The translations under genes and the position numbers were made by a program. From NCBI GenBank assembly GCA_027488755.1, contig JAIYAZ010000059.1:1-64000 (forward strand): a DNA stretch of 64,000 nucleotides, given 5' to 3'. This document shows, in pieces, positions 7,310 through 16,829 of this stretch (positions within the stretch are counted from its first letter, which is position 1; each line of letters begins with the position of its first letter). The stretch is from Verrucomicrobiaceae bacterium (lineage in GTDB: Bacteria > Verrucomicrobiota > Verrucomicrobiia > Chthoniobacterales > JAATET01). The notes under the pieces are model-generated. The model had not been told where the DNA came from and did no database searches. It was given only the letters and a program-made list of their open reading frames with translations.

Positions 7310-8782
7310 TCACAAGCCGGCGGCGACCCGGCGGAAGTGATGCCCCATCACGCAGAGCTCCATAGCGCGGGAAAACGCCCGAGGCCGCCGCCACAGCGTG
7401 CCCCAAAACAGACGCCAGTAGGCGCGGCGCCCCGGCAGCCACACGCCGAGCAGCCACATGCTCTTGAGGAAGGCGCGGGCGTCACTCGCCGTCAGCGGCA
7501 GCCGCGGCCCGCTCGGCCGGTAGTTTTCCAGAAACGTGCGCACCCGGGCGTAATAATTCACCGGCTCATACAGCGAACGCATGAGCCGCCGATACCCCTG
7601 GAGCAGAAATTCCCGGTCCAGCCGCGGGGTGAAATTCAGCTCGGCCTGCGTGTTGTTGCCCGAGCTGACCGCCTCCAGCCGGCCCTCGCGCCGCAGCCGC
7701 TCGAACAGTTGCGTGCCCGGCAGCGCCGTGAGCAATCCCACCATCGCCACCACCACGCCCGAGCGCTGCACAAACTGAAACTGCTGGCGGAAAATGTCCG
7801 GCGTGTCGCTGTCGAACCCCACAATGAAGCCCCCAAGCACCTCCATGCCGTAGCCCTGAATCACCCGCACCGCCGCCACCAGATCCTTCCGCGCGTTCTG
7901 CACCTTGCCGCATTCCGCCAGGCTCTCCGCGGAGGGCGTCTCCAGCCCGAGAAAAACTTTTTTGAATCCTGCCGCCGCCATCAGCGCGCACAATTCCTCG
8001 TCCTCCGCGAGATTCACCGACGCCTCGGTGAGAAATCCCATCCGCGCCCCGGTCCGCTCCCGCCACGCGATGATCGCCCGCAGCAGCGCCTTCGAGCAGC
8101 GCTTGTTGCCGATGAAATTGTCGTCCACGACAAACACCATGTCCTCCCAGCCGCGCTGCCGCAGCGCCTCAAGCTCCGCGATCAACCGCTCCACCGGCTT
8201 TGTGCGCGGCACGCGGCCGTTCATCACGATGATGTCGCAAAACTCGCAGTTGAACGGACACCCGCGCGAAAACTGCACCGACATCGTCACATACGGCCGC
8301 AGGTCAATCAGGTCCCACCGCGGCACGGGCACGCGGTCCAGCGAAGGCCGCTGCTCCGAGTGGTAAATCCGCCGCGGTCGTCCGCTCCGCAGATCCGCCA
8401 CCAACTCCGGCAACACCTCCTCCGCCTCGCCCAGCACGAAGTGCGCGATGCCGGGGAAATCCCCGTGCCCCGTCGTGAACAGCGGCCCGCCCGCGATCAC
8501 CGGCCGCCCCGCCCGCTCGCACCGCGCGACGATCGCCCGCACGGAATCGCGATGCACGATCATCGCACTCACCAGCACGTAATCCGCCCAGGCCAGATCC
8601 CGTTCGCGCAATTTCCCGACGTTCAAATCCACCACGCGCAACTCCCACTCCGGCGGAAACATCGCCGCGACCGTCAGCAACCCCAGCGGAGGAAACGCCG
8701 CCCGCTTGCCCACAAAACTCATCACGTGGCGAAAACTCCAGAACGTGTCGGGACTGCGCGGAGACAGCAAAAGCAGTTTCAT
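7310..8782 (-). CDS. B12-binding domain radical SAM protein with DUF4070
   Basis: A 490-residue protein. Residues 1-140 form a Rossmann-like cobalamin-binding domain. The radical SAM cluster motif is C175-x3-C179-x2-C182 inside RGCPFNCEFCDI. The C-terminal third fits DUF4070. Class B radical SAM enzymes of this layout usually methylate or rearrange unreactive carbons; hopanoid C-2 methylase is one member of the DUF4070 group. No hopanoid gene is nearby, so the substrate is open. ATG 8782 (MKLLLLSP) is preferred over the upstream start because it begins the first beta strand. It is divergent from the YifB gene. Confidence 0.87.
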   Translation of the reverse strand: MKLLLLSPRSPDTFWSFRHVMSFVGKRAAFPPLGLLTVAAMFPPEWELRVVDLNVGKLRERDLAWADYVLVSAMIVHRDSVRAIVARCERAGRPVIAGGPLFTTGHGDFPGIAHFVLGEAEEVLPELVADLRSGRPRRIYHSEQRPSLDRVPVPRWDLIDLRPYVTMSVQFSRGCPFNCEFCDIIVMNGRVPRTKPVERLIAELEALRQRGWEDMVFVVDDNFIGNKRCSKALLRAIIAWRERTGARMGFLTEASVNLAEDEELCALMAAAGFKKVFLGLETPSAESLAECGKVQNARKDLVAAVRVIQGYGMEVLGGFIVGFDSDTPDIFRQQFQFVQRSGVVVAMVGLLTALPGTQLFERLRREGRLEAVSSGNNTQAELNFTPRLDREFLLQGYRRLMRSLYEPVNYYARVRTFLENYRPSGPRLPLTASDARAFLKSMWLLGVWLPGRRAYWRLFWGTLWRRPRAFSRAMELCVMGHHFRRVAAGL

Positions 8783-12946: not shown

Positions 12947-13058
12947 TCCCGGCGTTTCCGGGCCAGGTCCGGCCTGAATGCGGCCGCCTGGCGTGTGTTT
13001 GTGCGCGGGGACCGGTGTCTCCCGCGGTCTGTTTCCAACCTTTTCGTGATTGTTTTCC

Positions 13059-13736
13059 ATGTCCTTTTCATCGTTTGCCGTTGCCCCCGATTCGCTCGGG
13101 CCGAATGTGCTCCGCGTCGGCCTCTTTGCCGGTTTTGCTCCCTTTGCCTGGCGGGAGGCCGGGCGGGGATGGCGGGGCCGTGATGTCACCTTTCTTCGCC
13201 GGTTTGCGGCGCGGGAGAAGCTGCGCCTCGAATTTGTCGAAAGCCGGTTCGACCGGCTCTGGGAATCGCCCGGGGCGGGAGCGGTGGACCTGGCGGCGAG
13301 CGGCATTTCCCGGCGGGAGGCCGTCCCGGGCGTGGCGTGGAGCGAACCCTACGCGGAGGTGCGCCGCAGCCTGCTGGTGCGGCGGCGGGACCGGGCGCGT
13401 CTCCACTCGCTGCGGGATTTCGGAGGGGCCCGCATGGCGGCCGTGGCGGGATCCGCGGCGGCCACGCACGCGGCGGAGCATCTGCCGGCCTCGGCCACGC
13501 TCACGCCCTGCGCCACGCTGGAGGCCGGCATTGAGGATCTGCTTGCCGGCCGGGTGGATGCCGTGGGCACCGGCAGCGTGAGTGCGGAGCATCACGCCGC
13601 GCGGCGGGATGGTCTCGGCATCGTGGATGTGCATGCCGACGCGCCCCGCGAGCGCATCGTCTTTGCGCTGCCGCGCTCCAGCCCCCTGCGCACCCGTCTC
13701 AACGCTTTCATCGCCGGCCATGCGCACCTTTATTGA
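13059..13736 (+). CDS. solute-binding (SBP_bac_3-like) domain protein without signal peptide
   Basis: The 225-residue protein looks like a type 3 periplasmic binding-protein fold: LRVGLFAGFAPFAWRE as first strand, a polar-amino-acid-type middle (DLAASGISRREAV, then WSEPYAEVRRSLLVR), and DLLAGRVDAVGTGS near the end. Such domains bind amino acids or other small ligands. No export signal is visible at the N-terminus (MSFSSFAVAPDSLG), so it may act in the cytosol or be a decayed secreted protein. ATG 13059 is preferred to a TTG at 13050. No permease or ATPase partner follows. Confidence 0.65.
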   Translation: MSFSSFAVAPDSLGPNVLRVGLFAGFAPFAWREAGRGWRGRDVTFLRRFAAREKLRLEFVESRFDRLWESPGAGAVDLAASGISRREAVPGVAWSEPYAEVRRSLLVRRRDRARLHSLRDFGGARMAAVAGSAAATHAAEHLPASATLTPCATLEAGIEDLLAGRVDAVGTGSVSAEHHAARRDGLGIVDVHADAPRERIVFALPRSSPLRTRLNAFIAGHAHLY

Positions 13737-13797
13737 CCGCTCGGCGCGTCGGCGCGGGCGCCGCCGGGGGCGGATGTTTGCCGGGACGGAGTTTCTC

Positions 13798-13862
13798 CTC
13801 GCCGCGCCCGACCTCGACGTCCGGCTGGAAGATGAGGACGCCGGGATGGAGGAGTGGGATGC
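13798..13862 (-). pseudogene. remnant copy of the 3' end of sbtB
   Basis: This stretch aligns with 15079-15143, the 3' end of the intact sbtB. Of the first 33 aligned bases 30 match, and similarity fades after that. On the minus strand it still reads HPGVLIFQPDVEVGRGEE, against HHGVIAFQQDVEVVRGEK in the intact protein. The rest of the gene and the stop codon are missing. The caspase-like gene lies between the two copies. Confidence 0.65.
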
Positions 13863-13966: not shown

Positions 13967-15058
13967 ATGAAACAATGCGTCCTGCTCGCGGTGTTGTTTG
14001 CGTTCACCTCCGCGCTGGTCGCCGCCCCCGCCTGGGACCCCGCGCGAACGTGGGTCTTCGCGGTGGGCATCCTGAACTTCCAGGGCGGGGCCCTGCATGG
14101 CTGGCCGGAGGAAGGGCGCGTGGACGCCATCATGATCGATGCGCTCATCGAGCGCGGGGTGCCCGAGGATCAAATCGTCTTCCTCAAAAACGACGAGGCG
14201 ACGGACGCGCAGATTCGGAAAAAATTCGCCGCGTTTCTCCGGCTCCCGGAGCCTGGGGATACGCTCATCTTTTACTACGCGGGCCACGGCGGACGCGATT
14301 ACTACGACCCGGCGCGGCCCGTCTGGCTCGTGCCCTACGACACCGATAAGTCCTGGCAGACCGCCGACGTGCTCGGGGCCATTGAGAAAAACTTCCGCGG
14401 CGACCAGGTTCTCCTCACCGCCGATTGCTGCCACTCCGGCGGTCTCGCCGAGGAGGCGGCGCGCCGCGAGGGCCGCATCCGTTACGGCACGCTCACCAGC
14501 GCGCGATCCAGCGCGACGAGCACGGGCAACTGGACGTTCACGCAATGCCTGGCCGACGCCTACGCGGGCAAGTCGGCGGTGGACCTCAACCACGACGGCT
14601 CGATCACCTTCGCCGAGCTCGCCCAATACGCCGACCTCAAGATGGCCTTCCACGAGAACCAGCGCATGACCAGCGCGACGACGGACGGCTTTTCCGAGGA
14701 TCTCGTGCTCGCCTCCACCGGCGGCGCCGAGCCGGAGTTGGTGGGCGAGACTTGCGAGGGGCGCTGGGAGGGGGAGTGGTATTCCGCCCAGATCATCGCC
14801 GCCCAGGACGGCAAGTATTTCGTGACCTGGCCCGGCGCGGAGGACCGCGACGATGCCTGGCTGGAGCCGAAGGATCTGCGCCCCGTCGGAAACACCGGGC
14901 TGGACGATGGCACGAAGGTGGAGGCCGAATGGAACGAGACCTGGTATGGCGCCACCATCGTTCGCACCGAGCTCGGGCTCTCCCTCGTGCACTACGACGA
15001 TTTTGAGGAAACCGACGACGAATGGGTGCCCGCGCCGCGGATTCGTCCCCCAAGCTAG
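13967..15058 (+). CDS. secreted caspase-family protein with EF-hand loop and two Tudor-like repeats
   Basis: The 363-residue protein starts with a cleavable signal peptide (MKQCVLLAVLFAFTSALVAA). A peptidase C14 domain follows, with H107 in YYAGHGGRD and catalytic C155 in ADCCHSGG. Residues 206-217 (DLNHDGSITFAE) form a perfect EF-hand calcium loop. Two repeats, about 264-306 (EGRWEGEWYSAQII) and 316-360 (VEAEWNETWYGATIV), resemble Tudor/Agenet beta barrels. The protein is probably periplasmic or surface-located and calcium-responsive. The substrate is unknown. ATG 13967 is chosen because it places the signal peptide at the N-terminus. Confidence 0.87.
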   Translation: MKQCVLLAVLFAFTSALVAAPAWDPARTWVFAVGILNFQGGALHGWPEEGRVDAIMIDALIERGVPEDQIVFLKNDEATDAQIRKKFAAFLRLPEPGDTLIFYYAGHGGRDYYDPARPVWLVPYDTDKSWQTADVLGAIEKNFRGDQVLLTADCCHSGGLAEEAARREGRIRYGTLTSARSSATSTGNWTFTQCLADAYAGKSAVDLNHDGSITFAELAQYADLKMAFHENQRMTSATTDGFSEDLVLASTGGAEPELVGETCEGRWEGEWYSAQIIAAQDGKYFVTWPGAEDRDDAWLEPKDLRPVGNTGLDDGTKVEAEWNETWYGATIVRTELGLSLVHYDDFEETDDEWVPAPRIRPPS

Positions 15059-15066
15059 GGGGTGCC

Positions 15067-15369
15067 TCAGAGATACTTCTCGCCGCGCACGACCTCGACG
15101 TCCTGCTGAAAGGCGATGACGCCGTGGTGGGCGAAGTAGGTGTCCGCGAGATGCGCGATGATGCGCTCGGCCACCTCGGCGCTCACGATGGTTTCGAGGC
15201 GGGTGTTGGAGCCCTCCCAGTCGAGGGGTTCAAGCCCGCGCGCGCCCTGCCCGCGGGCGTCCGTCGCGGTGTAACCCTTTGCGCCGAGCCGGAGGATCGC
15301 GCTGACGATTTCCTCGGCGATGAGCCGCGTGGCGATGATGGTGACGAGCTTGAGTTTGACGGTGTGCAT
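15067..15369 (-). CDS. sbtB: PII-like signalling protein SbtB
   Basis: This 100-residue protein has the ferredoxin-like PII fold: VKLKLVTIIATRLIAEEIV, then GAKGYTATDARGQGARG, then WEGSNTRLETIVS. It lies directly downstream of the bicarbonate permease, as in cyanobacterial sbtAB, where SbtB binds cyclic AMP and adenine nucleotides and controls SbtA. The C-terminal cysteine pair of some cyanobacterial SbtBs is absent. ATG 15369 is preferred to an upstream start because it begins the first strand. It ends eight bases from the convergent caspase gene. Confidence 0.85.
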   Translation of the reverse strand: MHTVKLKLVTIIATRLIAEEIVSAILRLGAKGYTATDARGQGARGLEPLDWEGSNTRLETIVSAEVAERIIAHLADTYFAHHGVIAFQQDVEVVRGEKYL

Positions 15370-15392
15370 GGCGGGGAGGGGACTTGGGACAC

Positions 15393-16352
15393 TCACGCGA
15401 GGCGGCGCGCAATTTCCAGGTAAAGCGGAATGCCGATGGCGAGGTTGAACGGGAACGTGAGCCCGAGCGACGCGGTGAGGTAGTAGGAGGGATTGGCGTC
15501 CGGCAGCGCGATGCGCACCGCGGCCGGTGCGGCAATGTAGGACGCGCTGCCCGCCATCGCGCCGAGCACGGCGGCCCCGCCCGGGCTGAGGCCGGCGAAG
15601 ATTCCGAGCGCGACGCCGAGCGAGCCGTTGATGAGGGGCACCACGACCGTGAGCACGAGAAACCGCCAGCCCGCCCCGCGCAGCTCGCGGATGCGGCGCG
15701 CGGCGAGGGTGCCGAGTTCGATCATGAACAGCACGAGCGCACCGGTGAACATCGTCGTAAAAAACGGCGTCGCCTTCTCCATCCGCTCGACCCCGGCGAT
15801 CCAGCCGATCAGCAGCCCGCCGACCAGGAGCACGATGCTTTTGCCCGTGAGCACCTCGTGCAGCACCTTGGGCAGCGAGCGGGCGCCGCCGCCGGGCGAA
15901 AACATCTGCAGCGCCAGCAGCGCGATCACGATGCCGGGCACCTCAAGGATGGCCACCAGCGCGGGCATGAAGCCCTCGGGGCGCGCCCCGGCCGAGATGC
16001 AAAAGGCCACTGCCGCAATGAACGTGACCGCCGAGACCGAGCCATAGTGGGCCGCGAGCGCGGAGGCATCCATGAGCGAGAGCCGGGCGAACTTGCGGAA
16101 GCCCACGAGCGCGACCAGAGGGGTCACCACGCCGAGCACGAGCGTGACCCCCGCCGGCGCAAGCACCTCGAGCGGCGGGGTGCGGCTGAGTTCGATGCCG
16201 CCCTTGAATCCGATGGCCAGCAGCAGGTAGATCGACAGTCCGCCGTAGATCGCCTCGGGCAGTCGCAGGTCGCTGCGCAAAAATGTCGCGATCATCCCGA
16301 GCAAAAACGCGAGCGGCACGGGCGAGAGGAAATTTGAGGCGAGGATATCCAT
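15393..16352 (-). CDS. sbtA: sodium-dependent bicarbonate permease SbtA
   Basis: A 319-residue inner-membrane protein with about ten transmembrane segments in two inverted halves. The opening (LASNFLSPVPLAFLLGMIAT) and GSASYIAAPAAVRIALPDANPS near the end are typical of SbtA, which imports bicarbonate with sodium. The ATG at 16352 (MDILASN) fits the family better than a start 57 bases upstream. sbtB follows 23 bases later. In a heterotroph it may feed carboxylases; no carbon-fixation gene is visible here. Confidence 0.88.
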   Translation of the reverse strand: MDILASNFLSPVPLAFLLGMIATFLRSDLRLPEAIYGGLSIYLLLAIGFKGGIELSRTPPLEVLAPAGVTLVLGVVTPLVALVGFRKFARLSLMDASALAAHYGSVSAVTFIAAVAFCISAGARPEGFMPALVAILEVPGIVIALLALQMFSPGGGARSLPKVLHEVLTGKSIVLLVGGLLIGWIAGVERMEKATPFFTTMFTGALVLFMIELGTLAARRIRELRGAGWRFLVLTVVVPLINGSLGVALGIFAGLSPGGAAVLGAMAGSASYIAAPAAVRIALPDANPSYYLTASLGLTFPFNLAIGIPLYLEIARRLA

Positions 16353-16415
16353 GGCGGAACTCCCGCGCAAAAAGCCATCGCGCGGCCCGGCAGGGCAAGC
16401 CAATATCATCGGACC

Positions 16416-16829
16416 ATGCGCGCCCGCCTCCTTCCCCCGCTGCTTTTTGTCGTTCTCGCCCTCGCCGGGTGCGCCTTCTTGCCGGAGGAGGGCGGCGCCA
16501 CGCAGCGTCTAGGCGGGCAGATCATTTTCCCGGGGCCGACCGCGCTGCCCCCGAGCGCCCGGGCCCATGTCACCGTGGTCCCGCTGCTGGGCACTGATCC
16601 CAAGCCGGCGGCGGAGGGGGATTTCCCCGCGCGCACGGGCGAGGCCATTCCCTTCGAGCTGAAGTTCCCCGCCGAGCGCGTCGCCGACCGGGGCGAATAC
16701 CTCGTGTTTGCCCAGATCATCGACCACGGGCGCGTCTGGTATTCCAACGTGAACGCTCCCCTGCGCCTCAGCTTCGCCGCCGAGCCGGGTGAGATCATCC
16801 TCGAAATGCGCCCCGAGGCCGGCCGCTAG
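16416..16829 (+). CDS. YbaY-like lipoprotein
   Basis: The 137-residue protein has a lipoprotein signal with lipobox LAGC (Cys19), then a single beta-sandwich domain of the YbaY type: GGQIIFPGPTALPPSARAHVTVV at the start, FELKFPAERV in the middle and FAQIIDHGRVWYSN near the end. The family is linked to surface or secretin-chaperone-like functions, but the role is not settled. It is divergent from sbtA and 56 bases upstream of fabV. Confidence 0.75.
   Translation: MRARLLPPLLFVVLALAGCAFLPEEGGATQRLGGQIIFPGPTALPPSARAHVTVVPLLGTDPKPAAEGDFPARTGEAIPFELKFPAERVADRGEYLVFAQIIDHGRVWYSNVNAPLRLSFAAEPGEIILEMRPEAGR

Follow-up and report, generated by a model that had tools for sequence, protein, structure and literature searches.

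A bacterial caspase-like protein with an apparent export signal, a conserved EF-hand-type loop in its p10 half and two Tudor-like barrels

The window analyzed here is a 64,000-nucleotide stretch of contig JAIYAZ010000059.1 of a Verrucomicrobiaceae bacterium. The gene under study (Table 1) encodes a caspase-like enzyme that has Tudor-like barrels, a conserved EF loop, and what appears to be an export signal, and the only match to this protein in its own genome at E ≤ 0.001 was the protein itself. Pfam matches above the respective cutoffs were obtained for Agenet (35.8 bits; cutoff, 27; E = 1.2e-8) and Tudor-knot (32.3 bits; cutoff, 20.8; E = 9e-8), both in two stretches, and for Peptidase_C14 (25.0 bits; cutoff, 21.4; E = 1.7e-5). 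H107 is located within the motif GHG (residues 106 to 108) and C155 within DCCHSG (residues 153 to 158), and the barrel repeats carry the motifs WEGEWY (residues 267 to 272) and WNETWY (residues 322 to 327). An earlier sequence-only reading had named a signal peptide, this caspase dyad, a 12-residue EF-hand loop, and two C-terminal beta-barrel repeats. These elements were recovered where they had been placed: none of the 16 aligned homologues deviates in the dyad or at loop positions 1 and 12, Pfam and structure models agree on the barrels, and the sequence itself and its hydropathy profile point to an export signal.

Table 1. Features of the caspase-like gene and its surroundings in the window
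Feature	Coordinates	Strand	Basis or remark
Family-3 solute-binding protein gene	13050-13736	+	Upstream of the caspase gene
61-nt direct repeat, upstream copy	13789-13849		Resembles an orphan piece of the P-II gene (by eye)
Whole caspase-like gene	13967-15058	+	363 aa, then stop codon
Apparent signal peptide, residues 1-20	13967-14026	+	Sequence and hydropathy scan
Caspase-fold core, residues 23-250	14033-14716	+	Pfam, AlphaFold model, structure matches
Catalytic His H107 (predicted)	14285-14287	+	Invariant in 16/16
Catalytic Cys C155 (predicted)	14429-14431	+	Invariant in 16/16
EF-hand-like helix-loop-helix within the p10 half, residues 190-230	14534-14656	+	Model helices 190-199 and 215-230
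12-residue EF loop DLNHDGSITFAE, residues 206-217	14582-14617	+	Sequence, homologue alignment
Tudor-like barrel 1, residues ~260-304	14744-14878	+	Pfam, profile matches, models
Tudor-like barrel 2 (chromo-barrel like), residues ~313-360	14903-15046	+	Pfam, models, structure matches
P-II gene	15067-15396	-	Downstream of the caspase gene
61-nt direct repeat, downstream copy	15070-15130		3' end of the P-II gene
SbtA-type bicarbonate transporter gene	15393-16409	-	Downstream, beside the P-II gene

Protein searches at E ≤ 1e-10 gave matches in 12 of 213 order, 11 of 286 class, and 3 of 387 phylum genomes, with the genome of origin counted each time; these samples overlap, and some of the matches are confined to the barrels or to the p20 part. 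Within the family, one of four genomes had a match at this threshold, namely, the genome of origin, the other three belonging to the same genus. A scan of named genomes identified one relative, on a contig filed as Planctomycetota, which matched residues 1 to 360 (best segment, 45% identical). A profile search covered 384 class genomes; 58 of these had a match to some part of the protein at E ≤ 1e-5, and one more near-full-length relative, with a single barrel (L082), was added. Nine of the 16 rows of the homologue alignment come from one family, designated f2, and the rows are thus not independent; the independent lineages aligned are f1, f2, f5 (two paralogues), f11, f103, f123, and the Planctomycetota contig. 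Four sequences were left out of the alignments: L004 (barrels only), L011 (its frame does not extend beyond the p20 part), L012 (a different type of caspase), and L018. The last is a truncated relative (L018/L032, in G613) whose sequence starts with the EF loop, Gly occupying loop position 1; it lies at ~8281 to 8715 on the minus strand of L032, and the stretch examined yielded no p20 part.

The AlphaFold model of the caspase-like protein had a mean pLDDT of 87.9 and a pTM of 0.85. Structure alignment of the model gave Z scores of 19 to 20 for the core against metacaspases, legumains, and caspases (20.3 over 212 residues for Arabidopsis metacaspase 4), and the best Foldseek E values for the core model were to the MALT1 paracaspase. 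The modeled fold and the His/Cys pair in the GHG and DxCxSG motifs place the protein among the C14 caspase-fold proteins, and peptidase activity is predicted. H107, D153, C155, D206, and E217 are invariant in the 16 homologues. With type I metacaspases (C14B; TbMCA2), the protein shares the fold, the His/Cys pair, and the S1-pocket Asp of the DxC motif, D153, which aligns with TbMCA2 D211, one of the S1-pocket residues of that enzyme. D53, present in 15 of 16 homologues, is within ~1 residue of the place of TbMCA2 D95, as extrapolated beyond the printed alignment. In the model, only ~17 residues separate C155 from the strand at 172 to 177, so that, unlike in type I metacaspases, there is no long p20/p10 linker for cleavage.

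Another difference concerns calcium. The metacaspase Ca2+ site is formed by TbMCA2 Asp173, Asp189, Asp190, and Asp220 (PMC4357240 and PMC9622860, in the sections available). In the printed alignment, the first three places are taken by P118, D134, and a gap; the place of D220 corresponds, by extrapolation, to E162. The homologue family has no conserved Asp in the p20-site columns, although the f2 rows do have Asp at column 118. Judged from these aligned sequences, the four-Asp p20 calcium site of type I metacaspases is not kept, whereas the EF loop of the p10 half is.

In the model, the EF element consists of a helix (residues 190 to 199), a loop with a short strand (212 to 214), and a second helix (215 to 230) and lies between the strands at 172 to 177 and 247 to 250. 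As modeled, it belongs to the p10 half of the caspase fold rather than forming an added domain, and the "separate" EF-hand of the earlier reading has to be revised to a loop joining two helices inside that half. The loop is more than a chance match, as the strict pattern arose in 88 of 100,000 shuffles of the protein. The loop is conserved among the homologues, and the check that could have told against it gave no refutation: position 1 is D and position 12 is E in all 16 sequences, positions 3 and 5 (residues 208 and 210) are always either D or N, and position 6 (residue 211) is Gly in 15. An EF-hand loop, defined by D, N, or S at positions 1, 3, and 5 and E at position 12, is thus present in 16 of 16, and the model has the helix-loop-helix arrangement of an EF-hand. 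The best Pfam EF-hand model reached 16.8 bits, which is below the cutoff of 25.9, and the loop is single and unpaired. Of 24 other Peptidase_C14 matches, which came from 12 of 96 phylum genomes, one carried the strict pattern; several other C14 proteins appear by eye to have a shorter Asp/Gly turn at this place. The one with the strict pattern, L040 in genome G091, is a different C14 protein of the same phylum, whose p10 half has the exact EF loop DANEDGYVTLTE in the corresponding position.

The loop would be expected to bind calcium, and this binding might gate activity. It is also possible, if on balance unlikely, that its role is purely structural, the loop stabilizing the p10 half with or without Ca2+ in an enzyme that is not switched by calcium and is constitutively active after export. 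Such a role would fit a single loop that scores under the Pfam cutoff, as well as the shorter turns of other C14 proteins, which suggest that the turn itself may matter. The paralogue L019 points the same way: it retains the EF loop and has neither barrels nor a clear export signal, so that the loop occurs independently of export. However, all five of the tested side-chain ligand places are kept (positions 1, 3, 5, and 12 in 16 of 16), which should exceed the needs of a mere turn.

For the whole model, the VIA list spanned residues 16 to 250 only, and the barrels were therefore modeled and searched apart. Modeled alone, they had a pLDDT of 89.5 and a pTM of 0.58, the latter leaving their mutual placement unsure. 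The two repeats align with each other with a score of 81, compared with 50 for the best of 2,000 shuffles, and structure prediction confirmed barrel folds at the C terminus rather than SH3-like noise. The best structure matches of barrel 2, all with a Z score of 10.5, were MRG15 (1.6 Å over 56 residues) and the methyl-lysine reader MRG2 (0.9 Å over 53 and 0.7 Å over 52 residues); barrel 1, hardly covered by the structure-match list, is supported by profile matches and its own strands. The aromatic cage is formed by His62, Tyr67, Tyr87, Trp90, and Trp94 in MRG2 (PMC4161306, available sections) and by His37, Tyr42, Tyr62, Trp65, and Trp69 in MRG701 (PMC5084153, available sections). When mapped by spacing and aligned ranges (model 56 to 107 on chain 51 to 106; 52 residues aligned), these places would correspond in barrel 2 to W322, Y327, Y343, F346, and D350, four of which are aromatic. 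The corresponding columns are aromatic in 12, 12, 13, 11, and 9 of 13 rows. The barrel 1 equivalents are W267, Y272, W288, A291, and D295 (columns aromatic in 3, 13, 13, 11, and 3 of 13), and this barrel has fewer cage aromatics than barrel 2 in the protein studied here. Barrel 2 thus shares with the MRG2/MRG15 chromo-barrels the fold and four of five cage places; it differs from MRG2 in that Asp350 replaces Trp94, and a histone ligand would be unexpected for a bacterial, apparently exported protein. From the model and the aligned residues, a cationic side chain, perhaps a methylated one, could apparently be held by barrel 2; in this protein, barrel 1 looks less suited to that role. The sequence-only reading had also suggested sugar binding by Tudor/Agenet folds, in favor of which nothing was found for these barrels.

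The caspase gene is flanked by a 61-nt direct repeat, the copies of which are 82% identical. The SbtA gene was found in none of the three other genus genomes (1 of 4, the genome of origin, has it). Together, the repeat and this absence hint at a local rearrangement or insertion, and given the flanking repeat, insertion of the caspase gene is possible. A G003 stretch was also examined, in which only the upstream gene is common with the surroundings of the caspase gene, so that an empty site could not be demonstrated. The GC content of the caspase gene is 66.5%, compared with 67.6% for the window (35th percentile). Among 66 pattern matches in viral contigs there were no relatives, and the four weak plasmid matches included none covering 80%; three of these four were examined by eye, and no EF loop was seen. 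With this ordinary composition and no match to phage records, a mobile-element or phage cargo is unsupported. An operon partner was likewise rejected, as the caspase formed the only cluster reaching the window or other families among the 25 largest clusters listed. Promoter/terminator and Rfam scans found nothing. At the 8 f2 loci examined, out of 9 found, the common neighbors are rhodanese, ABC-2 permease, and MacA/MacB-like genes (named by eye), and we read this common neighborhood as shared descent within f2. The core tree, which has open forks and long rows, gives the caspase-like protein no firm place. Its identity is 44 to 45% to L002 and L005 and 37 to 39% to the same-order f2 proteins; these identities and the absence from all three other genus genomes are what hint at horizontal transfer. 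The small protein encoded at 16416 to 16829 on the plus strand matches the YscW family weakly (24.2 bits; cutoff, 22.6).

Bacterial caspases are also the basis of intracellular systems, such as those treated in the available part of a 2021 eLife study of death domains in bacteria (PMC8195603). Matches to the PADLOC "caspase" model (E = 4.2e-13) and to EACC1-type caspases (NF047832), the best NCBIfam match (residues 59 to 224; E = 2.9e-10), would suit an intracellular cell-death or antiphage effector of this kind, but the latter score, 40 bits, is far under the curated cutoff of 140, and there is no EACC1 context at the locus. An export signal is apparent in 15 of 16 aligned homologues, the neighbors are a solute-binding protein gene and the P-II/SbtA pair, and no phage record matched. 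On the apparent export signal and the gene context we reject an effector role, to which we assign very little probability.

Among known systems, the closest is the one described by Kaur et al. in 2018 (PMC5906684). According to the available sections of that paper, bacterial chromo-like domains are consistently found in secreted proteins, in tandem, and a caspase-like peptidase is among their commonest partners; their proposed role is to bind peptides, probably through methylated lysine-like groups, in murein or matrix. Those secreted proteins combine, as here, a caspase-like peptidase with tandem Tudor/chromo-like barrels and cage aromatics. Secretion of the present protein is suggested by its apparent signal peptide, and of the features of that kind we observed the SH3-like barrel, a subset of the cage aromatics, and the linkage to a caspase, which is a common but nonobligatory partner. 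The domain mix, which had been thought unusual outside the cell, was thus already published. The same sections name planctomycetes, cyanobacteria, bacteroidetes, and chloroflexi for the caspase plus chromo-like architecture, and in them the EF-hand is another partner of chromo-like domains, not an element within the caspase p10. Prokaryotic orthocaspases are also bacterial C14 homologues with additional C-terminal domains; an EF-hand motif is listed in seven archaeal orthocaspases as an additional N- or C-terminal domain (PMC6426788, available sections); orthocaspases by definition lack p10. No Tudor-like partner is listed among the domain architectures in the available part of the Baltic waters survey (PMC4933709), and the accessible parts of the open-license literature that we searched describe no bacterial caspase with an EF-hand in its p10 half. 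The protein belongs to the described secreted caspase plus chromo-like kind, and its conserved p10 EF loop is, as far as that literature goes, the undescribed part.

We propose, with a probability of roughly 0.55, that the protein is an exported caspase-fold cysteine endopeptidase, probably directed to Arg or Lys, shaped by Ca2+, and tethered by its barrels to cationic peptides. The fold, the conserved catalytic pair, the conserved EF loop, the barrels, and four of five cage positions of barrel 2 were computed here; export, protease activity, basic specificity, the calcium requirement, the ligand, and the place of action are what we infer. In the proposed mechanism, H107 and C155 would cleave peptide bonds, with Arg or Lys as the most likely residue before the cut. 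In the p10 half, two helices are joined by the EF loop; the leading helix directly follows the stretch at 178 to 189, and this stretch should, by its position in the fold, border the substrate site. Outside the cytoplasm, where calcium is plentiful, the loop would bind Ca2+ and firm the p10 half, so that the enzyme might become fully competent only after export. The two barrels could then tether it to cationic, possibly methylated, peptides of the envelope, the matrix, or other cells. The absence of the gene from the other three genus genomes, the Asp at the fifth cage place of barrel 2 with the fewer aromatics of barrel 1, the unpaired loop with its subthreshold EF-hand scores, and the presence of the loop in L019 count against this proposal. 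That the catalytic pair is a relic in a nonenzymatic binder or calcium sensor would accord with the lack of a substrate or activity on record, but we find it hardly credible, as both residues are invariant in 16 of 16 homologues at a mean column identity of ~43%.

A bolder version of the endopeptidase proposal, which we consider doubtful, is that of a caspase lineage with calcium control placed in a p10 EF-hand instead of the metacaspase p20 site, the enzyme being off in the low-calcium cytoplasm and on only after export, with chromo-barrels aiming it at methylated cationic peptides. If true, this would be an export-coupled, mark-guided protease. One compact chain combines a catalytic pair and a calcium-type loop, both invariant, with a cage that is almost complete, and with all three in one small protein, calcium dependence and ligand choice are directly testable. 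Bacterial caspase plus Tudor-like proteins also bear on the origin of eukaryotic methyl-mark readers, as argued in the available sections of PMC5906684, where the functions of these proteins are so far proposals.

L017 has, by eye, further C-terminal repeats, and tandem Tudor-like repeats with no visible caspase domain were observed in other class members, namely, L033 (8447 to 9841, plus strand), L085, L086, and L096.
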